NCBI RefSeq assembly: GCF_000526155.1
Contig: NZ_JAFN01000001.1
Span: forward strand, 2,753,014-2,817,013
Length of the DNA: 64,000 nucleotides
Origin: Deferrisoma camini S3R1
GTDB taxonomy: Bacteria; Desulfobacterota; Deferrisomatia; Deferrisomatales; Deferrisomataceae
Direction of reading: 5' to 3'
Shown: piece after piece, positions 41,772-64,000 of the stretch
How positions within the stretch are numbered: position 1 is the stretch's first letter
Layout of the letters: each line of letters starts with the position of its first letter
Position numbers and translations under genes: made by a program
The notes under the pieces: model-generated
Database searches by the model: none
Told to the model about the DNA's origin: nothing
The model's input: only the letters and a program-made list of their open reading frames with translations

Positions 41772-42518
41772 TCATCGACAGGTGGTCGATTTGCGGCACA
41801 GGGTGCTGCCCTCGAACGACAGGCACCCCGGGTCGTTGATCCGGCGAAACCGGATGGTGGCCGTGTCTCCGTTGGCGTACGATACGTGGATCGTCCCCCC
41901 GCTGGCGTCGCCCGTGACCGTCCACGAGCCCGAGCCGCCGCCCCGGCTCGCGGCCCCCCACGCCATGGTCTGGTTGCCGTACTGGTCGGTGGAGGTGCCC
42001 GAGTAGCCCGACTCGGTGAACTCCCGGTACACCCCGCCCGGGCACAGGCCGATCTGGCGCTCGGTGCTGCCCGCGTAGCCCCACCACACCCCGGCGATCT
42101 GCCGGGCCAGGCGGGGGTCGTTGGGACCCGCGGGAGCTGCGCCGCCGCCGGCCGGGGCGGCCGCCGCGTAGTTCATCACCCCGCCCGGGGCGTTCAGGTC
42201 GATATCGAGCCGCAGGTCCCGGTCCACCACCGTGACCTCCCGGGTCACCTTCTCGGCCCGCACCGCGTAGGAGCCCGGCGGCAGCCCGGAGAACCCGTAC
42301 TTGCCGAACATGTCGGTCTGGGCCGACGCCACCGGCCGACCCGAACGCACGTCGAACAGGGTCACCGGCACCATCGCGGCCGGCGCGGTCGGCCCGCGTC
42401 CCAGGTACCCCCACACCGAGAACCCCCGCTGCAGGTCGCCCTTGGGCGGGGCTCCCACGCACGCGGCCAGCAGCACCGCCGTCGCGGCCGCACACCACCA
42501 GGTCTTCGTGCCCATCAT
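41772..42518 (-). CDS. Lipoprotein with carboxypeptidase-regulatory-like and GVWW domains
   Basis: 248 residues. The signal ends in the lipobox LLAAC, so Cys20 should be acylated. Residues about 32-110 form a transthyretin/carboxypeptidase-regulatory-like fold (VTLFDVRSGRPVASAQTD, FGKYGFSGLPPGSYAVRAEK). A Gly/Ala/Pro-rich linker leads to IAGVWWGYAGSTERQIGL and the same lipocalin-like C-terminal domain as in 37071-37916. It contains four C-terminal Cys that may form disulfides. ATG 42518 has AAGGAGA seven bases upstream. It lies between the clostripain and the beta-helix lipoprotein. Confidence 0.72.
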   Translation of the reverse strand: MMGTKTWWCAAATAVLLAACVGAPPKGDLQRGFSVWGYLGRGPTAPAAMVPVTLFDVRSGRPVASAQTDMFGKYGFSGLPPGSYAVRAEKVTREVTVVDRDLRLDIDLNAPGGVMNYAAAAPAGGGAAPAGPNDPRLARQIAGVWWGYAGSTERQIGLCPGGVYREFTESGYSGTSTDQYGNQTMAWGAASRGGGSGSWTVTGDASGGTIHVSYANGDTATIRFRRINDPGCLSFEGSTLCRKSTTCR

Positions 42519-42587
42519 TCCGAGTCTCCTTCGAGGTTTCCGCCTCCGCGTCCGGGCCGCACGCATCGGCCCGTTGGAGAAGGCGGT

Positions 42588-45500
42588 CTACAGGAACTGC
42601 GGCTCCACCTCCACCGCCCCAATGTCGCACGCGGCCGTGCCGTCCCCGTCGCCGTCCTGGGGCCGGGACACCCCCCGCTGGTCGGTGGCGGGGCACACCC
42701 CGTCGTCCCCCGCGTCGATGGCCGGGCTGCCCCCCTGGGGGAGCAGGGTCCAGGTGGGGCCGCCGTTGTCGGCCAGGGGGCCGAGCTGGGGGTCGGTGTT
42801 CACGAGGTCGCCGGCGGCGGCAGAGCCGCAGGTGCTGCCGCTGTCGATGTTGGTGCCGTTGGAGACCACCGCCGCGCCGGTCAGGTCGCAGTCGCCCGCG
42901 GAAAAGACGGTGTTCGCCATCTCGACGTTGCCGGAGGAGGCGATGTGGCCGCCGGTCCAGGTGGACTGGTTGGCGTGGAAGGTCGTGTTCCGCAACGACA
43001 GGTCCCCGCTGTCGGTGGAGGAGATCGCCCCGCCCGCGCTGTTGGTGCCGTTGTTGACGTTGCCCGAGAAGGTCGCGTTGACGATGGTCGCCGTCCCGGC
43101 GATGAAGACACCGGCGCCGCCACCGCCGCCCCCCAGGGTGCTCTCGATCCTGTTGTTGGAGATGGTCGACCCGGTGATGGTGACCGTGCCGTCCGAGTAG
43201 ATCCCGGCGCCGCTGAAGCTGAAACTGCCGACCGCTGTGCCGGTGTTCCCGTCGATCGTCGAGTCGACGACGTTCAGCACCGCGCCGGCGCCGGTACTGC
43301 TCACCCCACCCTCCAGGTTGTCGACGATCTGCGAACGGACGATGTTGATGGTGGAACCGCTCGAGCCTGTGACGGCGCGGCCGGCCTGGGTGTTCGAGAT
43401 GGTGGAGTCCGTGATGTTGATGGTCGCGTTGTCGGCACCCCGGACGGCCTCGGCGTACCCGGCAGCGTTGTTGTCGAGCAGCGTGTCGGTGATGTTGATC
43501 GTCGAACCGGCCCCCCCGTAGATGGCCGCCCCGTAATGTCCGTATGCGTAGGGCATAGTGTTCCCCGACAGGGTGGATCCGGAAAGGTTCAGCGTCCCCT
43601 CCACCCGGATGGCACCGCCGTAACTACCGGTCGATGTATTGTTCGACATCGTCGTGTCGGTGACGGTGACGGTGGCCACCGGACTCCACGCGTTGATCCC
43701 CGTGCCGTCCCCCCCCGTGTTGTCCGAGATCGCGGCGTTGCGCACGGTGAGATCCCCGCCGGTCGCGATGCCGCCACCGGAACTGGCGATATCGACGTTT
43801 TGCAGGGTCAGGCCGTCGAAGGTCGTGGGCACGTCGTTCAGGACGTGGAAGATCCGGTCGTCGAACGGGGCGCTCCCGTCGATGACGGTCGTCGCCGCCC
43901 CGGCGCCCTGGATCGCGAGGTCGTCGGTGACGTCCAGATCGCCGGTGGCGCCCGCATCCTCACCGCTCCCCACGAGGGTCAGGGCGTAGGTGCCCGCCGG
44001 CAGGGTGATCGCATCCCGGCCGGCGCAGGCGTTGGTCTCCTGGATCGCGGCGCGCAGGGTGCAGTTGCCGGAAGCGTCGGCGCACACGCCATCGCCGATG
44101 TCCGCGTCCACGGCATCGCCGGTGCTGTCCACCGTCGGGTCCGCCCCCCCGTTGGCCTGCAGGCACGTGACGTCGGCCACCTGGCCCTCCACCGCGCCGA
44201 TGTCGCACGCGCCGTCGGTGCGGGCCACGCCCCGCTGGTCGGTGGCGGGGCACACCCCGTCGTCCCCCGCGTCGAGGGCCGGGCTGCCGGCCAGCAGTCC
44301 CCGGGTCCGGGTCGGCCCGCCGTTGTCCGCCAGGGGGCCGAGCTTCGGGTCGGTGTTCACGAGGTCCCCGGCGGCGGCAAACCCGCAACTGTTGCGGCTG
44401 TCGATGTTGTGACCGCCGGAGGTGATGGTGCCACCGTTCGTCGAGCAGTTGGGGCCGTTGCCGTAGAGAATGGAATTCGTGAGCGAGGCAGCGGCGTTTC
44501 TCTCCGCTCGGATCCCTTCCCTGGTGTTGTTCGTGATCGTGCTGTTGGTGACCGTGGTCTGTGCCTCGTACAACAACACGCCGCGACCGGTGTTTCCAAC
44601 GACCGTGCTGTTCTCGATCGTCAGGTTCGATGGGGAGTTCGAGTAATCAAATATGCCGGCGGCGTAGTAGGGCCAGCTATCCCCGACATTGTACGAAACG
44701 GTTGCGTTGACCAGTACGAGAGTGCTGTTTGCAAACGTGATCCCGCCGCCGCTCCCGGCGGAGTTGTGTGAAATCTCCGAGTCCTCGAACACGGCCGTCC
44801 CCGTCCACGTGTAGAAGCCCCCACCCAAGGACGTCGCCACGTTTCCCGTGAGGAACACCCCTCGGAAGGTCACCCGCGTGGCACCGGAAGAGACACCGCC
44901 CCCGGACCCGGAGACGTTGCCGTTCCGGATGGCCAGGTTTTCAAAGGTTGCAGCGGCGACGGTTCCCACCGAGAAGACGCGGCTGGCGGCGTTGCCGTCG
45001 ACGATCGTCGAGCCCGCCCCCGCGCCGCTGACCGTCAGGTCGTCGGTGATCCCCAACCCGCCGAGGGTCAGCACGTAGGTCCCCGCGGGCACCTCGACCA
45101 CGTCGGCCCCCTCGCAGGCGTTGGCCTCCTCGATCGCCGCCCGCAGGGTGCACGCCGCGGTGTCCACGTCCGCGCACAGGCCGTCGCCAGGGTTCGCATC
45201 CGAGGCGTCGCTCGTGCTGTCCACCAGGAGGTACCCGCCCAGGCAGGTGACCGACAGGACCCGCAGCGACACCTCGTCGGAGGCGGTCCCGTCCGCCACG
45301 CTGACCGCCTTGACCGTCACGGTGTCCGGGCTCGGCACCGCGGCCGGCGGGGTGTAGGTGCCGTCGGCGGCGATCGTGCCCACGGTGGCGTCGCCGCCGG
45401 CCACGTCGTTCACGTACCACTCGACGGCGGTGTCGGCATCGCCCGTCACGGTGGCGGAGAACCCGGCGGTGGAGCCGAGCTGTACCGCGGCAGGACCGGT

Positions 45501-48335
45501 CACGGTGACCGCGACCGCCACGTTCACCGTCACCGCAGCCGTGGCGCTCTTGGTATTGTCGGCGTTGCTGGTGGCCCGCACCGTCTCGGCGCAGTCGACG
45601 GCGGGGCTTCCCGCGGTGTAGGTGCCGTCGGCGGCCACGGTGCCGGGGTCCGTGCAGGTGGAGCCCTCCACCGTCCAGGCCACCGTGGTTTCGGCATCCC
45701 CGATGACCGCGGCGGCAAAGGCCTGGGAGCCGCCCGGGGCCACCGTGGCGCTCCCGGGGCTCACCGCCACTGCCACGGGCGCATCCACCGTGACCGTGGC
45801 GGCGGCGCTCTTGGTGTTGTCGGCGTTGCTGGTGGCGCGCACCGTCTCGGTGCAGTCGGCGGCCGGGTCGCCCGCCGTGTAGGTGCCGTCGGGGGTCACG
45901 GTGCCGGGGTCCGTGCAGGTGGAACCCTCCACCGTCCAGGTCACCGCGGTGTCCGCATCCCCGGTGACCGCGGCGGCAAAGGCGTAGGAGCCGCCCGGGG
46001 CCACCGTGGCACTCCCGGGGCTCACCGCCACTGCCACCGGCGCGTCCACCGTCACCGTGGCCGTGGCGCTCTGGGTGGGGTCCGCGTTGCTGGTGGCGCG
46101 CACCGTCTCGGCGCAGTCGTCGGCAGGGCTGCCCGCGGTGTAGGTGCCGTCTGCCGCCACGGTGCCGGGGTCGGTGCAGGTGGTGCCCACCACGGCCCAG
46201 GTGACGGAGGTGTCCGTGTCCCCGGTGACCGCGGCGGCAAAGGCGTGGGAGCCGCCCGGAGCCACCGTGGCGCTCCCGGGGCTCACCGCCACCGCCACGG
46301 GCGCGTCCACCGTCACCGCAGCCGTGGCGCTCTGGGTGGGATCGGCGTTGCTGGTGGCGCGCACCGTCTCGGTGCAGTCGGCGGCCGGGTCGCCCGCCGT
46401 GTAGGTGCCGTCGGCGGCCACGGTACCGGGGTCGGTGCAGGTGGAGCCCTCCACCGCCCAGGTCACCGTGGTGTCAGGCGAACCGGCCACCGAAGCGGAA
46501 AAGGCGGTCGTCCCCCCGGGGGCCACCGTGGCCGTGGTGGGGCTGACGACCACGACCACGCCGCTGCTCTGGAACTCGACCGCCCCCAGGTCGCACGCGC
46601 CGTCGTCCCGGGGGAACCCCCGCTGGTCGGTGGCGGGGCACGCGGCAGCGTCGCCCGCGTCGATGGCCGGGCTGCCCGCCGCCAGGGCGTGGGTCCACGT
46701 CGGCCCCCCGTTGTCGGCCAGGGCGGCCAGGAGCGGGTCCGCCGTGGTCGCGTCGCCGCAGGAACCGTCGGTGTCGAGGCTCGCCGTCACCACGAGCTGG
46801 CCGGCGTTGGCGCAGTCGCTGCCGCCCGACGAGTCGGCGACGAGGCTGTTGACCAGGGTGACCGTGCCCGCGCCCTGGGACGCGTCGTTGTCGATGCCGG
46901 CCCCCACCGATGCCGCGTTCCCGGCGACCGTGACATGGGTCAGGGTCGCGGTGGCGGCCGCGTAGTTCATGAGACCCCCGCCGGTGAGCCCGCCCTGGTT
47001 GCCGCTGATCGTCCCGTTGACCACGGTGAGGGTGCCCCCCTGGTTGTTGATGCCGCCGCCCTGCTGGGTGGCGGTGTTGCCGGAGACGGTGCTGCGCTCC
47101 AGGGTCACCTCCCCCACGTAGTTGTGGATCCCGGCGCCGTACCGGGCGGAGTTCCCGCTGACGGCCGTGTCCACGACGGTGAGCACGCCGCCCTCCCCCA
47201 CCACGAGGCCGCCGCCCCCTTCCGTGGCACCGTTGTTCTCGACGACACAGCGGCTGACGGTCGCGGTTCCGCTTCCGGTGACGCTGATCCCCCCGCCGTA
47301 CCGGACGTTGCCCCCGTTGCGGATCCTGAGATCCTGCAGGGTCACCGCACCGCGGAGTTCGGCGACGCGGTCGAGCCCTCCCCCGTCGATCACGGTGCTG
47401 CCGGCACCCGCTCCGGTGAGGGTCACGTCGCCGTAGATGTCCAGGTCCCCGGTGGCCGCGGCGCCCTCCCCCGCACCCGCCAGGGTCAGGGTGTACGTCC
47501 CCGCCGGCAGGACGATCTCCTGGTCCCCCGGGCACGCGTTGGCCTCCTGGACCGCGGCGCGCAGGGTGCACGCGCCCGAGGCGTCGGCGCACACGCCGTC
47601 CCCGGGGTCGGCGTCCACCGCGTCGGCCGTGCTGTCCACGGTCAGGGTCCCGCACGCGAGGGGGGGCTCGATCGTCACCCGGGCCTCCGCGTACAGGTCC
47701 GGGGCCAGGGCGCTGGCCACCCGGATCGCGACCTCGGCCGGGGTCGGGACCGCGTCGGGCGCCGTGTAGGTGCCGTCGTCGGTGATCGTGCCCACCGCGG
47801 CGTTGCCGCCCGTCACCCCGTTGACCGTCCACACCACGGCCGGGTTCTCGAACCCGGTCAGGTCCACCGCCAGGGTGGTGGTCTCCGACACCCGGAGGGC
47901 CCCCGGCGGCGGGGCGGAGAAGGTGATGGTGCCCAGCTCCTCGACGGTGATCGAGACGGTGGCCGTCTCGTTCACCCCGAGGCTCGGCAACAGGGTGGAC
48001 CCCGCCATGCGGTGGGTCGTCCCCGCCCACGCGTCGGCCGAGAACAGCCGGTCCCGGCCGGCCGGGATGACGAGCACCAGGGGCGTGCCGTCCAGGGGCA
48101 GGTCGCCCGACACGGGGTCCATGCCGGGGCCGGTGCAGGTGATCTCGATCCGTTCCACGTCGTCCGGGAGGCCGGGGCCCACCGCCGGGGCGGCCCGCCC
48201 GGCCCGGGCCGTCCGGCCGAGGGACACGGTCACCCGCCCCGTCCCCGGCTCCGCGCCGGGATCCACCGGCCCGCTGCACGCGGCCAGCAGGGCCGCTGCG
48301 ACCACCCCCCACGGCCAACGCCACCAGTGTCCCAT
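42588..48335 (-). CDS. Giant lipoprotein with beta-helix/CSLREA and Ig-like repeats
   Basis: 1915 residues with lipobox LLAAC. It starts with Ig-like domains, then a CSLREA-type motif (DGVCADASGACTLRAAVQEA) followed by a parallel beta-helix with polymorphic-outer-membrane-type repeats (NTATQQGGGINNQGGTLTVV). In the middle are four tandem Big_2-like Ig repeats of about 87 residues and a fifth divergent Ig domain. Two further CSLREA plus beta-helix units follow. Each helix is closed by LADNGGPTWT...AIDAGD...CPATDQRG...CDIGAVE, the choice-of-anchor Q pattern. This is a surface-exposed adhesin-like protein. ATG 48335 has AAGGGGAGAG upstream. Confidence 0.85.
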   Translation of the reverse strand: MGHWWRWPWGVVAAALLAACSGPVDPGAEPGTGRVTVSLGRTARAGRAAPAVGPGLPDDVERIEITCTGPGMDPVSGDLPLDGTPLVLVIPAGRDRLFSADAWAGTTHRMAGSTLLPSLGVNETATVSITVEELGTITFSAPPPGALRVSETTTLAVDLTGFENPAVVWTVNGVTGGNAAVGTITDDGTYTAPDAVPTPAEVAIRVASALAPDLYAEARVTIEPPLACGTLTVDSTADAVDADPGDGVCADASGACTLRAAVQEANACPGDQEIVLPAGTYTLTLAGAGEGAAATGDLDIYGDVTLTGAGAGSTVIDGGGLDRVAELRGAVTLQDLRIRNGGNVRYGGGISVTGSGTATVSRCVVENNGATEGGGGLVVGEGGVLTVVDTAVSGNSARYGAGIHNYVGEVTLERSTVSGNTATQQGGGINNQGGTLTVVNGTISGNQGGLTGGGLMNYAAATATLTHVTVAGNAASVGAGIDNDASQGAGTVTLVNSLVADSSGGSDCANAGQLVVTASLDTDGSCGDATTADPLLAALADNGGPTWTHALAAGSPAIDAGDAAACPATDQRGFPRDDGACDLGAVEFQSSGVVVVVSPTTATVAPGGTTAFSASVAGSPDTTVTWAVEGSTCTDPGTVAADGTYTAGDPAADCTETVRATSNADPTQSATAAVTVDAPVAVAVSPGSATVAPGGSHAFAAAVTGDTDTSVTWAVVGTTCTDPGTVAADGTYTAGSPADDCAETVRATSNADPTQSATATVTVDAPVAVAVSPGSATVAPGGSYAFAAAVTGDADTAVTWTVEGSTCTDPGTVTPDGTYTAGDPAADCTETVRATSNADNTKSAAATVTVDAPVAVAVSPGSATVAPGGSQAFAAAVIGDAETTVAWTVEGSTCTDPGTVAADGTYTAGSPAVDCAETVRATSNADNTKSATAAVTVNVAVAVTVTGPAAVQLGSTAGFSATVTGDADTAVEWYVNDVAGGDATVGTIAADGTYTPPAAVPSPDTVTVKAVSVADGTASDEVSLRVLSVTCLGGYLLVDSTSDASDANPGDGLCADVDTAACTLRAAIEEANACEGADVVEVPAGTYVLTLGGLGITDDLTVSGAGAGSTIVDGNAASRVFSVGTVAAATFENLAIRNGNVSGSGGGVSSGATRVTFRGVFLTGNVATSLGGGFYTWTGTAVFEDSEISHNSAGSGGGITFANSTLVLVNATVSYNVGDSWPYYAAGIFDYSNSPSNLTIENSTVVGNTGRGVLLYEAQTTVTNSTITNNTREGIRAERNAAASLTNSILYGNGPNCSTNGGTITSGGHNIDSRNSCGFAAAGDLVNTDPKLGPLADNGGPTRTRGLLAGSPALDAGDDGVCPATDQRGVARTDGACDIGAVEGQVADVTCLQANGGADPTVDSTGDAVDADIGDGVCADASGNCTLRAAIQETNACAGRDAITLPAGTYALTLVGSGEDAGATGDLDVTDDLAIQGAGAATTVIDGSAPFDDRIFHVLNDVPTTFDGLTLQNVDIASSGGGIATGGDLTVRNAAISDNTGGDGTGINAWSPVATVTVTDTTMSNNTSTGSYGGAIRVEGTLNLSGSTLSGNTMPYAYGHYGAAIYGGAGSTINITDTLLDNNAAGYAEAVRGADNATINITDSTISNTQAGRAVTGSSGSTINIVRSQIVDNLEGGVSSTGAGAVLNVVDSTIDGNTGTAVGSFSFSGAGIYSDGTVTITGSTISNNRIESTLGGGGGGAGVFIAGTATIVNATFSGNVNNGTNSAGGAISSTDSGDLSLRNTTFHANQSTWTGGHIASSGNVEMANTVFSAGDCDLTGAAVVSNGTNIDSGSTCGSAAAGDLVNTDPQLGPLADNGGPTWTLLPQGGSPAIDAGDDGVCPATDQRGVSRPQDGDGDGTAACDIGAVEVEPQFL
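45530..46510 (-). repeat. Tandem 261 bp coding repeat (four units)
   Basis: Four copies of about 261 bp encode the Big_2-like Ig domains. Each has VAVAVSPGSATVAPGGS (VVVSPTTATVAPGG in the first), TWxVEGSTCTDPGTVAADGT and TETVRATSNAD. The middle copies are almost identical at DNA level, so unit number can be expected to vary by recombination. Confidence 0.88.
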
Positions 48336-48375
48336 GGCTCTCCCCTTCGTCTTCCCAAACGGCGACGCCACCGGG

Positions 48376-49584
48376 TCACCCTCCCTCGGGCAGCAGGCCC
48401 GTCGTCCGCAGCAGACTCCGCCAGCGCCCGTGGTGGTACGCGAACCCCAGCTCCACCCCCCGGCGCCACGAGCCCGCCGGGAAGGCGAACTCCAGGACCC
48501 GGTCCGTCCGGGTCGCGAACCTCTCGACCCGCGCCACCTCCTGGCCGCCCTGGGTGATCACCAGGTAGCCGGAGCACCCGAACCCCTCCCCTTCCACCCG
48601 GACGCGGTCGCCCACCCGGACCTTTGCCGACCCCGAGACGCCGCCGACCCGCGCCACGCGCACCGACGGCACCCGGTCGACCACCTCCCGGTACGACACG
48701 ATCTCGTTGCCGGCGATCACCACCTCCCAGAACAGGGGCGCGTACCCGTAAGGCGAGCCGCACGCCGTACCCAGCCACGCGCCGTCGGGCAGCAGGACCC
48801 GGTACCGGCCCCCCTCGGCCTGCACCCGGGCCACCGGGCCGCCGGGACCCCACCCCTCTGCCCTCGCCCAGAACACCACCGGGGCACCGGCCGTCGGGGA
48901 TCCGTCCGGCCCCCGCACCCACCCGCTCACCTCGGTGAGTCCGGTGGTGGGCGCGGTGGTGAGGCCCACGTCGGTGGGCGGCGGGGCCGGCGGTGCGGCC
49001 GCGTCGCCCGCACCCGCCTGGCTCGCGTTCGTCGGCTGTGGCGGGGAGGCGGCTGGACCCGGCTGCCCCTTCACCGGCGCCTGGGCGCCGCTGTCCGCCG
49101 AGGTCCCGGCCGCCTTGCCGGTGCTTGGCGAAGCGGCGGCGCCCGCACCCGCCGGGCCGGCGTCCCCCGGCCGGGAAGCCGCCCCGGCCCCCGGTCGTCC
49201 CTTGCCCGGCGCCCGGGCGTCGCTGCTCGCCGGGGCTTCCCGCGTCGGCGTCACGGCCTTGCCGGCGGCCGCGGCACCGGGTGCCGGGGTGGAGGGGGCG
49301 GCCGTCCCCTGCTGACTCGCGGCCGCCGGCGCCGGCGTCTTCTGGGGGGCGGCCTTTCCGGTGTCGCCGGCGTCCCGCGCGGCCGGCGGGGCGGGCGCGG
49401 GGGCGGCCTTTCCGGCGGCGGGCGCGGACCCGGCCGCCGAGGACGGGGCCGCCGGGGACGCGGCCTGGCCGGTCGGGGGCGGCTTGTCGATACGGACCGC
49501 CTTGTCGAACGCGGCCGCGTCCGGGACCGGCGCGCCCCAGAGCAGCGAACCGCACACGGTCAGCGCCAGGAGCGGCCGTCTCAT
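48376..49584 (-). CDS. Secreted Pro/Ala-rich protein with C-terminal beta domain
   Basis: 402 residues. A signal peptide (MRRPLLALTVCGSLLWGAPVPDAAA) precedes about 170 residues of low-complexity Pro/Ala/Lys/Gly linker (GKAAPAPAPPAARDAGDTGK and similar). A globular C-terminal part follows (from about residue 215): VSGWVRGPDGSPTAGAPVVFWARAEGW has a carboxypeptidase-regulatory-like look, then KVRVGDRVRVEGEGFGCSGYLVITQGG resembles an IPT/Ig domain. The long flexible linker suggests a surface stalk. The start overlaps the stop of the FN3 protein (ATGA). No enzyme motif is seen. Confidence 0.7.
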   Translation of the reverse strand: MRRPLLALTVCGSLLWGAPVPDAAAFDKAVRIDKPPPTGQAASPAAPSSAAGSAPAAGKAAPAPAPPAARDAGDTGKAAPQKTPAPAAASQQGTAAPSTPAPGAAAAGKAVTPTREAPASSDARAPGKGRPGAGAASRPGDAGPAGAGAAASPSTGKAAGTSADSGAQAPVKGQPGPAASPPQPTNASQAGAGDAAAPPAPPPTDVGLTTAPTTGLTEVSGWVRGPDGSPTAGAPVVFWARAEGWGPGGPVARVQAEGGRYRVLLPDGAWLGTACGSPYGYAPLFWEVVIAGNEIVSYREVVDRVPSVRVARVGGVSGSAKVRVGDRVRVEGEGFGCSGYLVITQGGQEVARVERFATRTDRVLEFAFPAGSWRRGVELGFAYHHGRWRSLLRTTGLLPEGG

Positions 49585-53800: not shown

Positions 53801-56800
53801 CGGAACATCCGGGCGAGTTCCTGGCCGGGGGAGAACCCGGGCCGGGGCTTGAGCAGGGTGAACGCGCCGGTGAGCATCCCTTCGGGGGACAGCTGGGCCG
53901 CGAGCTGCTCGGCCGTGTACGCGCCCGGCTGCACCAGGCCCAGGGGGCGGAGGCCGCCCTCCTCCACCACGAACCGGGCGAGTTCCGCGGCCAGGGCGTC
54001 CCGGAACGGGTCGGCCGCGCTGGCCGCGGGGTCGGGCAGGCGGGCCGCCAGCCGCCCGGCCAGCAGGCCGTGGCTGCCGAGCACGGCGCGGGCCGGCTCC
54101 AGGGCGGCCGCGACCGCCTCGTAGCGCGCCCCCGGGTCCTGCTCGGCGAACGCCTCGACCGAGAGCACCTGGCCGCTCTGGGCGGCGGTGGCCAGGCTGT
54201 CCCCGTCGCGCAGGGCCAGGCGGTCGAGCTGGTCGAACAGGTCGTCCACGTCCCCGTTCACCGCTTTCTGGATCAGCTCCGTCACGTCGAGCTGGGTGGC
54301 CGCGAACCGCTCGAGGAGGCCCTGGATCCCGGCCGCCGCCGCGGCCAGGGGGTCCGGGCTGGGCACGGGGTAGTCCACCGGCAGGGCGGCCACCGCCGTC
54401 ACCCGCCGGTAGAGGCGCTGCAGCTCGCCGAAGTCGTCGCTGTCGGTCGGGTCCAGCTCGTCCGTCCGGGCCCCCACCCACCGGGCCGCCGCGGCCCGGC
54501 CGGCCGGCCCTTCCTCCGCCTTCTCCTGGAGGACGAAGCCGGTGCACAGGGCGGCGTAGTCGCTCTCGGGGTCGGTGGCCAGGGCCACCTCCTGCACCGC
54601 CTCCCGGTCCGCGCTGACGGCCTCGCTGCCGTCGAACCCGAGCAGCTGGGCCTGGGTCTCCAGGAACAGCGCGGTCTCCAGGTGGCGCTTGAGGCACGCC
54701 CCCTCGGCCACGCACGCGGCGTTGGCCGCGGAGCGCTCCACGAGGACGGAACCCACCACCGCGACGGCCGACTCCTGGTCCGCCCCGGGCAGGTAGCCGC
54801 CCAAGGACAGGTCCGCGCCGAGCAACTGGGCCGTGGCCAGGAGCGCCATCATCTCCCGGATCGCGGCGTCGTCCCGGTCGGCCAGCAGGCGGGCCCGGAC
54901 GCTCCAGTACGCGTCGCGCAGCACCTCCTCCAGGGCCGTCGCGGACGGGCCGGCGTCCAGGGACGGGGCGTCCCAGCCGAACTGCTGCCCCACCACCATG
55001 GCGTCCAGGATCTCCCGGACCGACGCGGACCACCGGGTCGGGTCGGCCCGCGCCGCGGCCACGGCCGCCTGCACCCGCGCGTCCACCGCCGCGCCGATCC
55101 GCGACACCAGCCCCTCGGCACCGAGTTCGTCCAGGAGGTCGGGCCAGAACCCCACCGCCGCCCACTGCTCGCCGGTGGGGTGTTCGGGCAACGCGGCCAG
55201 GTCGGCGGCCAGGACCGGTTCCACCAGGGACGCCACGGTGGGGAAGTCCGCGGCGGGCAACGCGGCCAGGTCGGCGGCCGCAGCCGCCCACCGCTTCACC
55301 GTGGCCAGGTCCTCCCCCGGGTCGGCGCCGGTGCGCGCCGCCTCCACCACCCGGCCGAGGGGTTCGGCGATCTGCGCCCGCACCCGCTGGGCCAGACCGG
55401 CCAGGCGGGACGGCAGGTCCACCGGCCGGTTCAGCCCGGCGGCGGCCGGCGCCGCGGCCGCGAGGTCGACCAGCTCCCGGACGGCGGCGGGCTCGGGCAG
55501 GCGGTCCACGGCCTGGCCCCAGTAGTCGCGCCACAGGTCGGCGGCCGCGTCGGCCCCGGCCGCGCCGGCGATCCCGGCCAGGCGGGCGGTCAGGTCGGTG
55601 CCGGCCCAGGTCCCCAGCCGCGCCTCCAGGGCGTCGGCCAGGACGGCCAGCGGGTCGGGCGACGGGAGCGCGGCCCCCGGCGTGTTCAGCGGCTGGGCGG
55701 CGAGGATGCGGGCCCGGTCGGCCAGGACCCGGAGGAGCCGGCGCTCCCCCTCCACCCGGGGGTCGAGCCCCGCGGCCACCCGCTCCAGGAGGCCGGCGGC
55801 CCGGCCGCGTGCGTCCGCGTTCCGGGTGGCGAGCTGCTCCAGGACCATGGGGGTGACGACCTGCCCGTCCCAGTCGCCGGACGCTGCCGCGGTGGTGGCG
55901 CGCACCACCGCGTGGAGGTGCCGCTCCACCGCCGGGGCGTCGGCCCCCAGCAGCTGCGCGTCGGCCGCGAGCCGCAGGGCCTCCTCCAGGTTCCGGGTGA
56001 GGCAGGTGCCGACGGCGACGCACCGGGCGTTCTCGGCCGCCCGGTCCTCGAGGCGGGCGCCCAGGTGGTCCACCACCGCGGCGAGATCGGCCTCGGCCGG
56101 GAACCCGTCCACGGGCAGCAGTTCCACCCCGAGCATCTGGGCCGTGGCCAGGACCGAGAGCAGTTCCCGGGCCGCCCCGTCGAAGTCGCCGCCGTCCACC
56201 GCCCGGCGGGCGGTCGTGTAGGCCTCCCGGAGCACCGGGAGCAGGTCGGCGCCGGCGCTCGCCGACAGGGCCGGCAGGTCCCACCCCAGGCGCTGGGCGG
56301 CGGCGTGGATCCGGAGGATCGCCCGGACCGCGTACTCCCACGGCACGGCGCCGGAGCGGCCCCGTTCCACCAGGGTGGCGATCCGGTCGTCCAGGGCGGC
56401 GCCCAGGGCGGCGCGGGTCCGGTCGGCGCCGAGGGCGGCGGCCAGGTCGGGCCACAGCGCGAGGGGCGCGAGATCCGCTTCGGACGGCGCGGGCGGGAGC
56501 GCCTCGAGGAGCGGCCGCAGGCGCGACAGCAGCGCGTCGTCGGCGGTGAACGGGGCCCACCCGGGCACGGCGTCGGCCAGCAGCCGGAGGGTGTCGGCCA
56601 GGTCCCGGACGGCCGCCACGGACGGGTCGGCCGGGTCCACGACCGGGTCGGCCGCCCGGCCCAGCTCGTCCAGGAAGCGGTCGAGGCGGCCCGTCAGGCC
56701 GTCCGCGAGCCGCTGCCGCAGGCGGTCCCTGGCGCCGTCCACGTCGAGGTCCGGCCGGCCCAGGGTGCGTTCCACCCGGGTGCCGAGCCGGGCGAGCCGG

Positions 56801-59800
56801 GCCACCTCGGCCACGCGGTCGGCCACGGGCGGGGCGTCGTCCGGCGGGTACACGAGGGTGAGGGCGGCCCCGTTCCAGGCCGCGGTCCAGATGTTGCGGA
56901 TCCTGGCGACCACGGCGTCCTCCAGCACGCCGAGGTCGTCCGGCTTGCCCGCCCACACCGCGTCCCACGACGGGTCGCGGTCCGCCTCGGCCGGCAGGGG
57001 GACCTCCTGGAGGCGGCGGACGCGGAACAGGTAGTGGAGGAGCCGGTCCAGGGAGTCCTCGGCCTCGGGCAGGGCGTCCACCGCCGCGCCCAGCCGCTCC
57101 ACGGCCGCGGCCCGGCCGGCGAGCCCGTAGCGGGCGATCTGTTCCGCCAGCCGGGAGGTGAACGCGAGGTCGAAGGACGCGCGTTCGGTGCCGCCGGTGC
57201 TCACCGCCAGGTCGGCCGAGACCCGCTCCGTCACCCGCAGCGCGAGGTCGGTGGCGTCGAACGGCCGGTACCCGACGGCGGCGAACGCGGGGGACAACGC
57301 CTCCCCCACGGCCGGGCAGCCGAGCATCTGGTTGTCGCGCTCCACCGCCAGGGCGGCCCGCGCGTCGGCGGTGACGAACACCCGGTTCGGGTCCGCGAGC
57401 AGGCCCTCCAGGCGGTCGTACGCGGCCCGGGCCGCCTGGCACAGCAGGGCCAGGTCGGCGGCGGCCGCCGCCGCCAGGTTCTCGGCTCCGTACACCAGCT
57501 CGGGGTCGACCACCCCCTGCTGGACGAACGCGTTGAGCCCCAGGAGGCGGGCGCCGTCGTCCGGCTGCGGGGCCGTCTCCATCCGCTCGCGCAGGGCGAG
57601 GTAGGTCCGGCGCAGGGCCAGGCCGAGGCGGGCCCCCACCCGATCGGCCACGACCAGGCCCGTCTCCTGGGCCAGGGTGAGGTGCCCGAGCAGGGCGGCG
57701 ATCGGGTTGTCCCCCTCCGGGGGAGGCGTCAACCAGTCCGTCACCGCGGTCGGGTCCGAGGCCCGGGCCTCCACCGCGGCCAGGGCGTCGTCCACCAGGG
57801 CCGACAGGCCGGCGGCCAGGGTCTCCAGGACCTGGGGCCCCACCCCGTCGACGGCCCAGCCGTTGGCCTCGGCCTCCGCCCACAGGGCCAGGAGGCGCCC
57901 GGCGCCCTCGTCGGAGGGCGCCCCGGCAAAGGCGGCCCGGGCCGTCTCCAGGGCGTTCAGGAACGCGGTCTTGTGCGCGTAGAGCGGGTCGTCTTCAGGG
58001 GGCGCCGTCACCCGGCCGGGCGGGCCGGGGTACGACACGGCGGGCTCGTCCCGGTCGTACTCCGCGTGGTAGCGGGTGCCGTCCGCGCGCTCGATGTCGA
58101 TCACCTCGCGGCCGGCGGCGGTGGCGAGGCGGCGGGTGGTCTCCTCCGGGGTGGCGAGCACCGACTCCACGTCGCCCCCGGGCCGGGTGGTGACGTTCAG
58201 CACGGCCGGCCGGCCGCCCTCGAGGATCCACGCGGTGCGCCGGTGCTGCCCGTCGCGGTCGGACCAGGTGGTGACCCGCCGGCCGTCCACCGCCTGCTCG
58301 GACCGGGGGGCGGCCCCCTCCGGGTACACGGTGACCGCGCCGTCGGCTGCGGCGAACACGGGCTCCCCGGTCCCGCCGGTGACCACGATGCCGCCCTCCG
58401 GGGTCCGGGCCACCGCGAGCCGGCTGAACGCCTCCATCTGCGCCGCGACCCGGGCGTCCAGCGCCTCGCCGGTGAGGCCGGTGCTCTCCAGCTGGTCGCG
58501 CACCAGCTGCTCCACGTCCACCACGTCGGCGAACCCGAGCTGCTCGGCCACGGTGCCCGCCCCGGCCGGGTCGCCGAACAGGCTGACGCCCTGGGCGTCC
58601 ACCACGTCGCCGGACGCGGTGGCGCGCAGCAGCAGGGGGCCGTGGGCCAGATCCTGGTCCGGGGCCGGCACCGCCGCGCCGGGCGGCACCGCCGGGAACG
58701 CGTAGATCTCGGCCGAGCCGTCCGGCGCCACGTACGCCGCGAACTCGCCGGGCCGGTACAGGTGGCGGGTGCCGTCGGCGAACACCACCTGCCGCTCCAG
58801 GAGGGCACCGCCGACCTCCAGGCCGGCCGGGTCCGTCGGCGCCTCGGCCGGCTCGAACGCGACCACGTCGAAGCTCTCCCCCTGCCCCACGTGCACCGTT
58901 CCGCGCCCCTCGGTGTAGCGCACCCGCAGGTCCGGCCGGCCCGGCAGGGGCCCCTCGTACGCGAGCAGCCGCCCGTCCAGGGGCACCGCGGCCACGTCCG
59001 TGAACGCCACGTCGCCGGCCACGAACCGCAGCTGCCGCTCGCCCGTGGCCGGGTCGGAGATCGAGACCGCCTCCATCTGGGGCTGGAACGCGATGCGGCG
59101 CCCCCCGGCGTCCAGCCACCGGGCCTCCAGGAGGGTGCCCGAGATCTCGTCCCCCGGGGTTCCCCGGGGCGGCGGCGCCGCCACCAGGAGGAGGCGGTAC
59201 GGCACGAAGGTGCCGTCCGCCCGGCCGGCGGTCACCTTGACCACCTCGCCCAGCTGGCGGTTGTACGAGACCCGGCCGCCCCGGCCGTCCCGGTACTCCC
59301 GCTCCTGGACCGTCGCGTCGGTGGCCAGGGTCTGCTCGACCCCCGCCAGGTCGGTCAGGCGGTCCTCGGGCAGGTCCTCGACCCCGTCCAGCACGTGCAG
59401 CTCGCGCAGGCCGGGGAAGTCGGGGTGATCGTCCGGGTACCGGACGGACAGGACCCCGCCCAGCTCCAGGTCGAGGGTCCGCTCCACGCCGGACAGGTCC
59501 ACCTGGCGCACCCGGCGGACCGTCCCGCCGGCCCGGGTCACCCACACGCCGACCCGGGAGGCGGGCGGCCGGCGCAGCACGTACAGGGCCCGCGCCACCG
59601 CTTTCCGGCCCGCCGGGTCGGCGACCCGCTCCGCCTCCGTCTCCAGCAGGGCCTCGAGGGTGCGGGGGTACGTGTCGGCCGGCGGCCGGTCGGCCCACAC
59701 CGGGTCCACGGCCCGCAGGGCGGCGGCCAGGGGCGCCGTGAACTCCCCCGCCGGCTGGTAGGCCGTGGCCAGGTCGTCGAGCATTCGGGCCACCACCGGC

Positions 59801-62800
59801 GGGGTGAGACCGCCGGCCTCGAACACGCCCAGCGCCCCCCGCAGCACGGCCGCGGCCACCCGCAACGGGCCGGCCGCCCGGCCGGGAGCGGCCGCCGGGA
59901 GGAACCGGGCCAGCGCCCGGTCGTCGCCGGCCCACGCCACCAGGACCGGGTCGCGGTCGAGGCTCGCCGTGATCCCTCCCCGCTCGTCGGCCCGGATCAG
60001 CAGGTCGATCAGCTCGAGGCCGACCTGCAGCACCTCGGGGAGCCGCTGGATCTCGGCCCCGTACAGGGACACGAACTGCAGGACCCCCCGGGTGTACGCG
60101 AGGCCGTCCGACAGGAGGGGGTCGCTCGCCGCGCCGGGCAGGCCCTGGAGTTCGGCGACCACCCCGTCCAGGCTGCGGCCCCAGGTCGCGAGCCCGTCCC
60201 ACCGGTCCGCGTCCGCCAGGGGGACCAGGGCGTCGAGGATGCCGGCCACGATGTGGACGTACCGGACGGCGGTCCGGTCGCCCGTGGCCCGCCGGGCGAC
60301 CAGGCCCAGGGGGCGCGCCAGCTGCGACCCCACCTGGAGCACCTGGACCGGGGGCGGGTCGGCGTCGTCCAGCTGGGCCAGGGCCCGCCGCAGGTCCCGC
60401 AGGGCGGCCACCTCGTCGAAGGCGAGGGTGCCCGGCGCGATCGCCCGCACCGTGTTGGCCACCTGGACCAGGAGATCGGCCCCCCACCGGGCCGTTCCGA
60501 GGTTCCCTTCGGGCACCGCGCTCACCCCCCGGAGGGCCACCTGGCCCAGGCGCAGGGCGGCCTTCACCTGGGCGTCGAACCGGCCGTAGTCCACCCGGGC
60601 GGTGACGGCGCCGCACCGGACCTGGCCGGCGGCGGAGCCGGCCAGGGGGTCGAGGACGTCCACCAGGGCGCCGGCCACGGCCGCCGGGTCGGCGGTGCCC
60701 CCGTCCACCAGATCCTTGAGCGAGGCGAACACCTGCCGGGACACCACGGCCACGTTCCGGAACTCCTGGCGGGTCGTCACCGGGGGATCGCCGGAGGTCA
60801 GGGGGTCCCCCACCTCCGGGTTGGCGCACACGAACGCGCTCACCTCGTCGGCGAGGTCCACCACCTGCGCCAGGTCCACCGGCGTGCCGGCGTTCACCCC
60901 CTGCCCGATGGCCACCCCGGTCTGTGCCAGGGCCACGGCCAGGGGCAGGGCGCCCAGGGCCGGGTTGCCGCTCTCGATCTCGGCGTACCGGCGCACCACG
61001 TCCACGGACGCGTCGGCCAGGCGCCACGCGGTGGTCGAGTCGATGGTGCCCCGCTCCACCAGGGCCCGGGCGGCCGTGACCAGGACCTTGGCCACCTGGA
61101 GGGCCAGGTCCACCTGGGCGTCCACCTCGGGCGGGTCGTACTGCATCGACTGGAGGATCGGGATCGCGGTGTCGAGGGTCTGGAGCACCAGGGCGGCGGC
61201 CTGCTCCGGGGTGATCTCGTCGAACTGCACCCCCATGTTGGCCGCGGTGATGGCGATGTCGGCGAGTTCCATGGCCACGTACTCGGGGTCCGTGGCCTCC
61301 GGGGACGGCTTGAACAGGTCAGGCGACAGGTACAGGGCCTTGAGCAGGTCCACCGACGCCCCGGCCAGGGACAGCCCGTTGCCCACCAGGGCCCGGACCT
61401 CTTCCACGCCCACGCCGCCGGCACCGCCGGCCGACGCGCCGGTGGCCGCAGCCGCGGCCACGGTGGTGACCACCGAGCTGGCGAACGCGGCCGCCTCGGT
61501 GGCCACGTTGATCACCTCGGCCCCGACCCCCTCGGCCCCGGTCACCTCGCCGGCGATCGAGCCGCCCAGCCGGGCCGCCGTCTCCCCGATGTGGAGGGCG
61601 GCGAGGGCCGCCTTGACGATGTCCACCCCGGCCCCGGCCCCCACCTTCTCGTAGGCGGTGAGGGCGCCGCCGGCGTCCACGTACTGTCCCACCTCGGCGA
61701 GGCCGTCGAACGACAGGGCCCCGAGCACCTCCACCGTGGCCTTGCCGAGGAACGCCTTGAACTGCTTGGGCTGGGCCTCGTCGTACCGGTCGCCGTCGGC
61801 GCTGCCGACCAGCCGGGCGTCCACCACGGTGTCCGGGGTGCCGTAGGTGTTCAGGAACTTAAGGGTGGCGTCGATGTAGATCGCGCCGCCGGGGTCCCCC
61901 ACGATCGGCTCGGGGGCGCCGTCTTCGTTGCGGTGCTGGGGCTCCACGTACGGCACCATCGCCCCCAGGGCGGTGTGGAACACGGTGACGTGGCGGGGCT
62001 TGAACAGCTGGAACGCGACCCTTCCGTCCAGGCGCACCCGCCAGTCCCGGGTGGGCGGCGCGTCGGGCGGCGGCGGCCGGTGGTCCCCCACGTAGCGGCG
62101 GAACGACAGGGCCGTCTCCCCCTCCCGGGCGGTGGCCGCCACCTCGGGGGTGAACGGGATCCCGAGGAACCGCAGGCCCGACCCGGCGGGGGCGATGGGC
62201 GGGCTGCCCCGCGGGTCCCGGTCGTACCCGATGTTGCCGTCGGGGTAGATGTCGAGGGTGACCGTGAACGGGTGCTCGGCGCCGTCGGCCCGGAACTCCA
62301 CGCCGCCGTACGCGTCGGGCACCGCAAGCGCGAGCCCGGCGTCCTGGATCACGATCCGCCGGCCCGGCCCGTCGAGGACGACGCCCGGCGCCGCCCCGTC
62401 GGCGGCGGCCCGGGGGTGCAGCGTGGCCGACCAGTACCGGAGGGGCCAGCCGGCGGACGCGTCCGGGGGCACGAGGCCGTCGGGCCCCACCAGGATCTGG
62501 CCCGACGCGTCCACCTCGCCGCGGAACCCGAGGGCCAGGTCCACCGGGTACGGCACCAGCAGGTCGCCTTCCACCAGGCTGCGGGCCACGGCCGAGTCGT
62601 CGAACTCCACCACCGCCCCGCCGATGCGCGCCCGGAACCCGGCCACCTCCCGCGCCACGAAGTCCCGCTCCAGCAACCACAGGCCGTCGGCGCCGGACGA
62701 GGTGAGCACCACGGCCGCCCGCTGCCCCCACGCCTGGACGACGTCGGACAGGGGGGTGCCGTCCACCTGGATCGCGGCCAGCCCCCCGCCGCCGTCGCCG

Positions 62801-64000
62801 GCCCCCTCCCGCGGCGCGGGCAGGGGCGGGGCCTCGGGCCACGGCAGGTCCACCCGCCCGCCGGTGAGGTGGAGCCCTCCCCGGCCGGCGAGACCGGCCC
62901 GGTACTCGGCGATCCACGCGTCGGCCTCCTCGGCGGACGCCGGCGGCACCAGGGCGCGCCGGGGCGGGCCCGGCCGGAGGTCCCCGGCCGCCGCGGACCG
63001 GCCCCCGGGGATCACCAGCCGGGCCTCGGCCGGGCGGTACGTGAACCCGCCCAGCTGCACCGCGCCGGCCGGCAGGGGCTCGGTCTGGAACCCGCTGCTC
63101 CCGGGCGCGCGGCCGAGGTTCTGGAACCGCACGGGCTGGGCGGCGTACGCGGCCGGCAGACGCACCTCGCCCGCCAGGGAGAGCCCCCCGACCCCGTCGC
63201 CGTCCAGCTCGAACACACCCCCGTCCACCGCCAGCTCGAACCCGGCCGGGTCCTCCAGGCGGAGGGGCTCGGCGGACGGGGCGACGCCGAAGAACGCCGG
63301 CGCCTCGGCCGCCGGCACCACCTCGATCTCGCCGGTGAGGCGTCCGTCCGTGGCCAGCTCGAGGCGGGCGAACCGGCCGTACAGGTACGCGCTCGCCGGG
63401 TCCACGGTCTCGAACAGGCCGGTCCGGGACTCGTCCACCCCCGGGGTCAGGGCCAGGTCCGACCGGGCGTGGACGGCCACCCGCACGTAGCCCCCGGCCA
63501 GGGCCACCCCCTGCCACTCGGGGCCCTGGCCGCCGTGGGTGGCGTACCCCAGGTGGGGGGAGAAGTCCGCCACGATCCGGGCCCCGGCCAGCTTCAACGC
63601 GACGTCGTCCCCGTAGGGCACGAACACCCCGGGCCGCACGTACGGGTGGAGGTCGGGCAGGTCGTCGGGGAACCGGCGCTCGGCCACGAACTCGCCGCCC
63701 GAGACGATCTCGACCCGCTCCAGGGGGAGCACCCCCGGGACGTCCACGGGGCGCACCGCGCCGGGCATCGGGTACCACAGGTCCAGGTCGGCGGTGGCCC
63801 GGGACGCCTCCAGGTCCAGGCGCCGCAGGCTGAACCCGTGCCCGCCCAGGGACAGGGGGACCGGCTCGCCCTGGAGCGAGGCCGTGCCCATGGTGACCCG
63901 GGCCACCAGGGGGTCGGGGGTGGCCTCGACCCTCACCCCCTCGAAGCGCACAGGGACCTCGGCCCCGGAGGTGTCGCCCCGCCACGTGAGGTGGGCGGTG
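50833..64000 (-). CDS. Giant secreted-type protein, C-terminal 4388 residues (5' end outside window)
   Basis: The frame is open from 50833 to the window edge with no stop (at least 4388 codons), so the first GTG (63951) need not be the start. The visible N-terminal part (about 64000-61900) is beta-rich. The middle (about 61800-52200) is a very long Ala/Leu/Asp-rich helical region. It has a duplicated module of about 440 residues containing ATAQ-M/L-LG, then CVAxGxCL, then AQLLG (56700-55400 and 55400-54100). The last 450 residues return to beta structure with paired Cys (YNVCDRDMCAGRDGQFRPD). I recognise no catalytic or secretion domain in what is visible. It is the first visible gene of an exported-protein operon; function unknown. 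Confidence 0.85.
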   Translation of the reverse strand, partial: TAHLTWRGDTSGAEVPVRFEGVRVEATPDPLVARVTMGTASLQGEPVPLSLGGHGFSLRRLDLEASRATADLDLWYPMPGAVRPVDVPGVLPLERVEIVSGGEFVAERRFPDDLPDLHPYVRPGVFVPYGDDVALKLAGARIVADFSPHLGYATHGGQGPEWQGVALAGGYVRVAVHARSDLALTPGVDESRTGLFETVDPASAYLYGRFARLELATDGRLTGEIEVVPAAEAPAFFGVAPSAEPLRLEDPAGFELAVDGGVFELDGDGVGGLSLAGEVRLPAAYAAQPVRFQNLGRAPGSSGFQTEPLPAGAVQLGGFTYRPAEARLVIPGGRSAAAGDLRPGPPRRALVPPASAEEADAWIAEYRAGLAGRGGLHLTGGRVDLPWPEAPPLPAPREGAGDGGGGLAAIQVDGTPLSDVVQAWGQRAAVVLTSSGADGLWLLERDFVAREVAGFRARIGGAVVEFDDSAVARSLVEGDLLVPYPVDLALGFRGEVDASGQILVGPDGLVPPDASAGWPLRYWSATLHPRAAADGAAPGVVLDGPGRRIVIQDAGLALAVPDAYGGVEFRADGAEHPFTVTLDIYPDGNIGYDRDPRGSPPIAPAGSGLRFLGIPFTPEVAATAREGETALSFRRYVGDHRPPPPDAPPTRDWRVRLDGRVAFQLFKPRHVTVFHTALGAMVPYVEPQHRNEDGAPEPIVGDPGGAIYIDATLKFLNTYGTPDTVVDARLVGSADGDRYDEAQPKQFKAFLGKATVEVLGALSFDGLAEVGQYVDAGGALTAYEKVGAGAGVDIVKAALAALHIGETAARLGGSIAGEVTGAEGVGAEVINVATEAAAFASSVVTTVAAAAATGASAGGAGGVGVEEVRALVGNGLSLAGASVDLLKALYLSPDLFKPSPEATDPEYVAMELADIAITAANMGVQFDEITPEQAAALVLQTLDTAIPILQSMQYDPPEVDAQVDLALQVAKVLVTAARALVERGTIDSTTAWRLADASVDVVRRYAEIESGNPALGALPLAVALAQTGVAIGQGVNAGTPVDLAQVVDLADEVSAFVCANPEVGDPLTSGDPPVTTRQEFRNVAVVSRQVFASLKDLVDGGTADPAAVAGALVDVLDPLAGSAAGQVRCGAVTARVDYGRFDAQVKAALRLGQVALRGVSAVPEGNLGTARWGADLLVQVANTVRAIAPGTLAFDEVAALRDLRRALAQLDDADPPPVQVLQVGSQLARPLGLVARRATGDRTAVRYVHIVAGILDALVPLADADRWDGLATWGRSLDGVVAELQGLPGAASDPLLSDGLAYTRGVLQFVSLYGAEIQRLPEVLQVGLELIDLLIRADERGGITASLDRDPVLVAWAGDDRALARFLPAAAPGRAAGPLRVAAAVLRGALGVFEAGGLTPPVVARMLDDLATAYQPAGEFTAPLAAALRAVDPVWADRPPADTYPRTLEALLETEAERVADPAGRKAVARALYVLRRPPASRVGVWVTRAGGTVRRVRQVDLSGVERTLDLELGGVLSVRYPDDHPDFPGLRELHVLDGVEDLPEDRLTDLAGVEQTLATDATVQEREYRDGRGGRVSYNRQLGEVVKVTAGRADGTFVPYRLLLVAAPPPRGTPGDEISGTLLEARWLDAGGRRIAFQPQMEAVSISDPATGERQLRFVAGDVAFTDVAAVPLDGRLLAYEGPLPGRPDLRVRYTEGRGTVHVGQGESFDVVAFEPAEAPTDPAGLEVGGALLERQVVFADGTRHLYRPGEFAAYVAPDGSAEIYAFPAVPPGAAVPAPDQDLAHGPLLLRATASGDVVDAQGVSLFGDPAGAGTVAEQLGFADVVDVEQLVRDQLESTGLTGEALDARVAAQMEAFSRLAVARTPEGGIVVTGGTGEPVFAAADGAVTVYPEGAAPRSEQAVDGRRVTTWSDRDGQHRRTAWILEGGRPAVLNVTTRPGGDVESVLATPEETTRRLATAAGREVIDIERADGTRYHAEYDRDEPAVSYPGPPGRVTAPPEDDPLYAHKTAFLNALETARAAFAGAPSDEGAGRLLALWAEAEANGWAVDGVGPQVLETLAAGLSALVDDALAAVEARASDPTAVTDWLTPPPEGDNPIAALLGHLTLAQETGLVVADRVGARLGLALRRTYLALRERMETAPQPDDGARLLGLNAFVQQGVVDPELVYGAENLAAAAAADLALLCQAARAAYDRLEGLLADPNRVFVTADARAALAVERDNQMLGCPAVGEALSPAFAAVGYRPFDATDLALRVTERVSADLAVSTGGTERASFDLAFTSRLAEQIARYGLAGRAAAVERLGAAVDALPEAEDSLDRLLHYLFRVRRLQEVPLPAEADRDPSWDAVWAGKPDDLGVLEDAVVARIRNIWTAAWNGAALTLVYPPDDAPPVADRVAEVARLARLGTRVERTLGRPDLDVDGARDRLRQRLADGLTGRLDRFLDELGRAADPVVDPADPSVAAVRDLADTLRLLADAVPGWAPFTADDALLSRLRPLLEALPPAPSEADLAPLALWPDLAAALGADRTRAALGAALDDRIATLVERGRSGAVPWEYAVRAILRIHAAAQRLGWDLPALSASAGADLLPVLREAYTTARRAVDGGDFDGAARELLSVLATAQMLGVELLPVDGFPAEADLAAVVDHLGARLEDRAAENARCVAVGTCLTRNLEEALRLAADAQLLGADAPAVERHLHAVVRATTAAASGDWDGQVVTPMVLEQLATRNADARGRAAGLLERVAAGLDPRVEGERRLLRVLADRARILAAQPLNTPGAALPSPDPLAVLADALEARLGTWAGTDLTARLAGIAGAAGADAAADLWRDYWGQAVDRLPEPAAVRELVDLAAAAPAAAGLNRPVDLPSRLAGLAQRVRAQIAEPLGRVVEAARTGADPGEDLATVKRWAAAAADLAALPAADFPTVASLVEPVLAADLAALPEHPTGEQWAAVGFWPDLLDELGAEGLVSRIGAAVDARVQAAVAAARADPTRWSASVREILDAMVVGQQFGWDAPSLDAGPSATALEEVLRDAYWSVRARLLADRDDAAIREMMALLATAQLLGADLSLGGYLPGADQESAVAVVGSVLVERSAANAACVAEGACLKRHLETALFLETQAQLLGFDGSEAVSADREAVQEVALATDPESDYAALCTGFVLQEKAEEGPAGRAAAARWVGARTDELDPTDSDDFGELQRLYRRVTAVAALPVDYPVPSPDPLAAAAAGIQGLLERFAATQLDVTELIQKAVNGDVDDLFDQLDRLALRDGDSLATAAQSGQVLSVEAFAEQDPGARYEAVAAALEPARAVLGSHGLLAGRLAARLPDPAASAADPFRDALAAELARFVVEEGGLRPLGLVQPGAYTAEQLAAQLSPEGMLTGAFTLLKPRPGFSPGQELARMFRTTLAAAGLPSTGWPGGAASLLGGVVDGVLSAGYQGTVAGNPIDWNRVLRDAVTPLSSGTSGFWVRLMADTTLLGLAVAETGGPSDPEAQGREAVDLLGRLVQEGDFQTTVDGLPEPVRTGVRLAAQVPVDALSYAWTLQPGDTADAPPRRVAGDPILYAFLKAAANALFPSPGRAPSAGRELSHWALDLVAGQEAALAQGPEQGLPALAGALVAADGAPKLACILDRHVDGLDVTPRALVAPFVLINEVAKNAALLGTDDAPRVLIDVAAGGADYLYSRVPLSCGDGPFAGVEPSALGILIRQFKDLESVRDPFELAGRVAVAAVYTAEALAGENPHTLSRVLKVLWWGAQADPATWPPARSLGVYHLLAGQVQDPVTQVQFALGVPKMAGEVIDILASDPALQKPMRLLSGSCEKIGDRELLLAPDACDPGEGKGARNLILGALGDLRRTILPDLPDDAHANDEAWGYLRTLPILAGADADGVPVLANLGDEDLWADTVARVNNLNRAVIDPAARAAVVDDAKKAVVGVIDLARMAVSFVDRLPTGNQVQVGAEQVLADSVFTETIGGATFTGIGGGVWRRWSLAGGGVRPLDERVRLELVGRFTLPALLKVAAQFTYETLGPNEWLVKIQAGGNYPDLDAGFQSIGVSVPANQLAESLVGGAEAELFGWLGHNDAGAYARLWAYADANLGALPLGRVNLSGFMTVPAAADGRPLPPEAFVRAFDVGMCGDLALPVVPPPFSLLSGGLTAEAGGYFYKQGDAIGFGAKGGAAVQVIIPMFPAAGLELGLALGQSGDAVLSGTAARLGLGMCVSPWVRGYFLGFDVESPGTGLEAQFFGAVDTAPEDAEVGIKFRLSIPDVKTDLPEIDCTPIPEEDALARGVCEGLQLLVSTTPAGQSVGAWGVLGTKGFSFGLGEFPTDPESWVLHMPVSDGALAGITVTHPSPAWVGWSPSPYNVCDRDMCAGRDGQFRPDAAVPGQVMTEPNHE

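Follow-up and report, generated by a model that had tools for sequence, protein, structure and literature searches.

A putative outer-membrane barrel and a shared N-terminal domain beside the gene for a 5106-residue protein of Deferrisoma camini

In two-partner secretion (type Vb; FHA/FhaC and CdiA/CdiB), an outer-membrane barrel is encoded next to a very large exported partner, which has a conserved N-terminal head and a variable remainder. The Slam systems place a dedicated barrel beside its client genes, and the clients share one domain that the barrel recognises while differing from each other in function. MtrB/PioB-type porins are large outer-membrane barrels, and the chaperone-usher and type IX systems (SprA, PorP/SprF) likewise use large barrels, to export surface proteins or to hold them. 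The locus analysed here shares something with each of these. It occupies the end of a window of 64,000 nucleotides (G000:C1:2753014-2817013, with a G+C content of ~67-81% in this region) from the 4.24-Mb, single-contig genome of D. camini S3R1, and continues past it.

A first-pass annotation of the window had described a minus-strand operon of exported proteins around a giant protein of no known family, in which the genes for the giant, an FN3 protein and a Pro/Ala-rich protein overlap and are followed by a beta-helix lipoprotein, a GVWW lipoprotein and a clostripain. All of these genes are present, on that strand and in that order, and Pfam holds nothing significant for the giant. The operon itself is real, but it had been ended too early: it runs on for ~8 kb outside the window, taking in a lipoprotein gene and a barrel gene, as far as a BTAD-type regulator. 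The features, from the regulator downstream, are these:

Upstream of P0003: regulator P0004, with a BTAD domain (PF03704, 3.5e-13).
L001:6154-7044, the upstream end of the operon: P0003, a GVWW-type protein.
Upstream of the giant, between P0003 and P0017: P0002, the "barrel", 726 aa, carrying a signal peptide, a pair of Ig-like domains and an extended strand-rich part.
Directly before the giant: P0017, a 147-aa lipoprotein (lipobox LAGC) whose sole domain is the A2 domain.
50833-64000, minus: the giant protein, with the C-terminal 4388 of its 5106 aa inside the window.
49581-50840, minus: secreted FN3 protein, 419 aa (Pfam fn3, 5e-14), whose gene begins 8 nt inside the giant's end.
48376-49584, minus: Pro/Ala-rich protein, 402 aa, with no Pfam match; its gene overlaps the stop of the FN3 gene by 4 nt.
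42588-48335, minus: large beta-helix lipoprotein, 1915 aa (lipobox LLAAC).
41772-42566, or to 42518, minus: GVWW lipoprotein, 248 aa from the second ATG at 42518.
38228-41719, minus: clostripain (Pfam PF03415, 1.6e-46; 159.9 bits for the Peptidase_C11 domain against a cut-off of 25.8).
37071-37892, minus: exported GVWW-type protein, 57% identical to P0003, together with which it flanks the cassette.

The sequence upstream of position 64000, which the annotation had singled out as a place to look for secretion genes, holds the barrel and the A2 lipoprotein. No other members of the set are as well conserved, and these two hint at the giant's route to the surface. About 500 residues of P0002 appear to form amphipathic strands, as judged from alternating hydrophobicity, with 32 strand-like peaks where chance would give 25 +- 3, and every one of the 16 aligned family members ends in F, W or Y. 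This strand pattern, the terminal aromatic residue and weak Pfam matches (MtrB_PioB at 0.0013 and OMP_b-brl at 0.014, one member each) point tentatively to an outer-membrane beta-barrel, whose N-terminal Ig-like pair would probably lie on the periplasmic side. Neither a POTRA domain nor any other known translocation feature was detected in the barrel. The A2 domain, ~112 aa long, also opens the giant, where an FN3-like domain stands next to it; its signature is GATTGPL..RVELTFPNG..TV..ARA.IRY.GNG.L...W.VDGR..TLTFG..LPTFEPG.H.VTL..IRYFV. Neither the giant nor the barrel nor A2 had a significant match in Pfam, NCBIfam, PDB sequences or profile searches, and none of P0017, P0002 and P0003 matched a known family.

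By analogy, the barrel and its A2 proteins may work like the dedicated barrel/client pairs of two-partner secretion and Slam. As in the former, the barrel adjoins a very large partner with a conserved head and a variable rest; unlike there, the barrel carries Ig-like domains, and an A2-only lipoprotein and accessory genes accompany the pair. Among the 16 barrel-family members Pfam found neither POTRA nor ShlB (the genome's only ShlB match lies at 627 kb, far from the cassette), and it found no TPS (haemagglutination activity) domain in the giant's N-terminus or in P0016. A dedicated barrel with clients sharing one domain recalls Slam, from which this locus differs in having no TPR part and in the N-terminal position of the shared domain; a Pfam scan of the 16 barrels gave no Slam (DUF560) match. 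The likeness to MtrB/PioB-type porins lies in the large barrel and the weak similarity of the one member, whereas the partners here are no cytochromes and the barrel begins with Ig-like domains. With respect to chaperone-usher and type IX systems, Pfam gave no usher match in the 16 barrels, no chaperone or pilin match in those cassette proteins that were scanned, no T9SS match at a useful E-value (PorP_SprF reached only 0.11, in one member), and no type IX C-terminal sorting domain at E up to 10 in the giant, its C-terminus included.

The giant's reading frame (50833-63999) is still open at the window end, and with the genome sequence beyond it the protein begins at an ATG at C1:2819166, ~2.15 kb further on, with the Sec-type signal MGTHRIGRVLLVALLAGLLGAPARA. 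The same DNA also contains an open frame of 4461 aa on the plus strand. It was ruled out, and the minus frame is taken as the real gene, because of codon statistics and the pattern of substitutions relative to the sister species G001. There the giant has the same 5106 codons and zero indels, dN/dS is 0.39, and the substitutions at minus-frame codon positions 1/2/3 number 51/38/92. In full-length numbering its parts are:

~38-155: A2 domain, after the signal.
~155-290: FN3-like.
~290-1460: beta-rich.
~1460-2050: mostly helical.
~2050-2720: beta-rich.
~2720-4300: alpha-helical solenoid.
~4320-4940: conserved C-terminal part of mixed structure.

The part inside the window has zero Pfam matches at E up to 10, and the N-terminal 717 aa have no significant one. 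Structure prediction makes residues 3250-3960 all-helical, with 30 helices, in a model good for helix content only (pLDDT 64, pTM 0.36); AlphaFold2 from the single sequence gave a pLDDT of 37 for the C-terminal 789 aa. The helical middle is under weaker constraint, with dN/dS up to ~0.9 in one 500-codon block that holds few changes. A long alpha-solenoid between beta-rich ends would most likely serve attachment or as a surface scaffold.

Co-occurrence of the gene set had been proposed as a check on the operon, and the set does recur. A second, diverged cassette lies at C1:133-158 kb of the same genome, in matching order: BTAD regulator, barrel (52% identical to that of the main cassette), A2 lipoprotein (59%), a giant of 4611 aa, FN3 protein (41%), a CarboxypepD/TIG-like protein and a large lipoprotein. 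The two giants have kept residues 6-470, 686-1099, 1167-1875 and 4330-4939, at 25-42% identity, and the genome's four A2 domains are divided two per cassette, with none elsewhere. G001 and G002, the sister species, also have both loci, in part truncated where contigs end, and a third copy in G007, from another family of the order, has the same sequence of barrel, A2 lipoprotein, giant (2709 aa), FN3 protein (37% identical) and large lipoprotein. Giants thus range from 2709 to 5106 aa across cassettes, and an A2-only lipoprotein stands between barrel and giant in D. camini's own genus and in G007. In G002 the barrel at the main-cassette site (L027 97-2205, on G002:C172), next to cobalamin genes, is ~33% identical to that of D. 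camini and the second-locus barrel 85%, which may reflect fast change or a replacement at one locus.

The accessory members are conserved in part. The Pro/Ala-rich protein has a conserved C-terminal region that resembles a CarboxypepD-type plus a TIG-type domain, with a 39%-identical region in the second cassette. The large lipoprotein contains CSLREA, choice-of-anchor-Q, Ig-like repeats and a right-handed beta-helix; its N-terminal domain recurs in the lipoproteins that occupy the corresponding position of the other cassettes, and beyond it these proteins vary, from beta-helix in the main cassette to a beta-propeller-like stretch in the second and Ig-like repeats in G007 (the last two read by eye). 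The first-pass annotation had taken all these products for parts of one extracellular structure, with the clostripain as its processing protease. The idea of one surface operon with no known family is supported, and that of a processing protease is not: the second cassette has no clostripain, in G007 the clostripain and barrel genes are on different contigs, and G004 and G006 have a clostripain but no barrel. As a part of the machine it is ruled out, being a genus-level neighbour that is not conserved with the barrel; the GVWW lipoprotein adjoins it in G001 and G002 as well.

Other features of the genome were recorded in passing. At C1:158680-164502 (L014), beside the second cassette, lie apparent multihaem cytochromes and a barrel-like protein, a group that reads by eye as a porin-cytochrome conduit. 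Its cytochrome-like protein at C1:158680-161700 ends in GSTGCFLQTLSRP, similar to the end, PGSGGGGGGCFLRVLGW, of a 1237-aa product of a two-gene minus-strand segment in the window (29496-34567); such C-termini are perhaps a sorting or lipidation signal. That segment is flanked by two nearly identical 145-aa proteins (28591-29028 and 34832-35269, plus strand). The window also holds a Wadjet type III defence operon at 7745-16650, plus strand (JetA3 1.5e-40, JetB3 7.3e-32, JetC3 2.8e-52, JetD3 7.6e-57). Its JetC and JetD genes are separated by a small pair at 14859-15493 that reads by eye as antitoxin/PIN-like; G001 also has JetD with this pair.

Barrel and A2 profiles were then searched in 395 genomes of the phylum. 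The barrel profile matched 31 of them at E 1e-3, ~20 strongly, and the A2 profile 17, from 12 families, all inside the barrel-positive set; by our own arithmetic, which ignores relatedness, such nesting would arise at random with a probability <1e-18. A strong barrel match lies on the same contig as A2 in 16 of the 17, and in the other (G113) the barrel is a fragment, truncated by the end of its contig. Barrel and partner genes share a strand, with the partner downstream; most cassettes have nothing between the two, and one further gene intervenes in G121 and in the cassettes with the extra A2 lipoprotein. This arrangement holds wherever the contig allows. A barrel match with an A2 gene close downstream on the same strand was found in both D. 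camini cassettes and 14 further genomes. Across 16 cassettes, distances between barrels correlate with those between A2+FN3 regions (r 0.94; 0.90 without D. camini's own genus; Mantel p 2e-4), and vertical descent accounts for part of this correlation. Three genomes of one genus (G211, G188 and G233; L074, L075 and L076) encode a diverged, shortened barrel-family protein of ~555 aa and no A2 gene detectable with the A2 profile, making them a test case for the barrel having a function of its own. No relatives were found in viral contigs (A2) or in plasmids, and literature searches found no description of the barrel/A2 system.

Behind a constant A2-FN3 head, the C-terminal cargo of the partner varies. 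It is absent in G040, G147, G346 and G091, where the partner measures 352-360 aa; it is a subtilase with intact D/H/S motifs in seven genomes (G090, G121, G136, G271, G290, G337 and G113), an extension containing PKD/Big_7/CARDB in G293 (2084 aa) and G141 (>1214 aa), and a giant in D. camini's own genus and G007. Profile comparison of the extension types tested revealed no relation among them; only the two subtilase sets matched each other. A constant head with swappable cargo beside one barrel has the look of a recognition module, and this is the main argument for docking to the barrel or export by it.

Regulation varies as well. In four genomes of the subtilase type (G090, G271, G290, G337) the cassette comes after an ECF sigma gene and a membrane anti-sigma or anti-sigma-like gene (L063 933-1565, L068, L070 7157-7777, L073 1174-1755), and D. 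camini's own genus and G141 have a BTAD regulator instead. The anti-sigma protein of G090 carries zf-HC2, and its periplasmic C-terminus matches the Fervidolysin prodomain family, of subtilase type (PF22148, 1.9e-4), as if the factor bore a domain resembling an inhibitor of the exported protease. We treat this as no more than a lead, since a direct comparison of profiles between anti-sigma C-termini and the cognate subtilase prodomains was not significant.

The cassette is best read as an outer-membrane barrel/partner pair with the giant as its largest surface passenger, docked via A2-FN3, a reading to which we give about an even chance. Sec would export all parts of the cassette, the barrel would insert in the outer membrane, and the giant's N-terminal A2 and FN3-like domains would dock at it; the barrel would then hand the docked giant to the cell surface or hold it there. 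The A2-only lipoprotein could be a second ligand of the same barrel site (a plug, anchor or co-factor), and the FN3 protein, the Pro/Ala-rich protein and the large lipoprotein would be accessory surface components. Stated more generally, the barrel/A2 two-gene unit is probably a surface-display system listed in no family library. The broader proposal of a new outer-membrane delivery or display system, in which a POTRA-less, Ig-bearing barrel and a ~112-residue N-terminal docking domain would serve interchangeable surface cargoes, from proteases wired to an ECF sigma/anti-sigma pair up to a 5106-residue scaffold, is one that we advance tentatively and with some doubt.

The barrel may instead be an outer-membrane anchor only, with A2 tethering the partners from outside or from the periplasm and export proceeding by type II secretion or not at all. 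Another export route does exist, because the genome encodes secretins (two genes), but these are generic, and no link between them and the cassette was seen. That A2 also occurs in a lipoprotein, which needs no channel, and that a cargo-free A2-FN3 partner would be sensible as a structural protein both fit this explanation, which we regard as possible but doubtful. It is unlikely that the giant is a periplasmic scaffold or inter-membrane bridge, held by the barrel at the outer membrane and never exposed. Its Sec signal with no recognised surface-export or sorting domain, its long alpha-solenoid and the probable periplasmic side of the barrel's Ig-like domains would all suit such a location; the swapping of giants with subtilases and with PKD, CARDB and He_PIG repeats suits exposed proteins better, as does fast divergence within the genus (main-locus barrels of G000 and G002 at 33%, other locus at 85%).

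Much less probable still is a giant that carries a contact-dependent or polymorphic toxin through the barrel: the pairing of a large exported protein with an adjacent barrel gene of its own recalls CdiA/CdiB, and a beta-rich stretch, on a reading of the sequence, loosely recalls YD repeats, but the giant has no Pfam toxin, TPS or repeat domain, the barrel no POTRA or ShlB match, and the giant's C-terminal part is ~25% identical between paralogs, with a tip that is not swapped. Equally improbable is a gathering of independent surface genes by chance with no joint structure, since the gene order is repeated at both loci of D. camini and once more in another family, and all 17 genomes with A2 have a barrel as well. 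These findings contradict it for the barrel, A2 lipoprotein, giant, FN3 protein and large lipoprotein, although the clostripain and GVWW genes, not kept with the barrel outside the genus, may still be chance neighbours.

If the giant is indeed a passenger of the barrel/partner pair, a single logic of constant docking head, own barrel and exchangeable cargo would apply to large exported proteins that have so far been nameless, and the export route of the giant would become directly testable. Should transport through the barrel be confirmed, this would add a route of secretion or display that the known list lacks, and its short export head could be tried on other cargoes.
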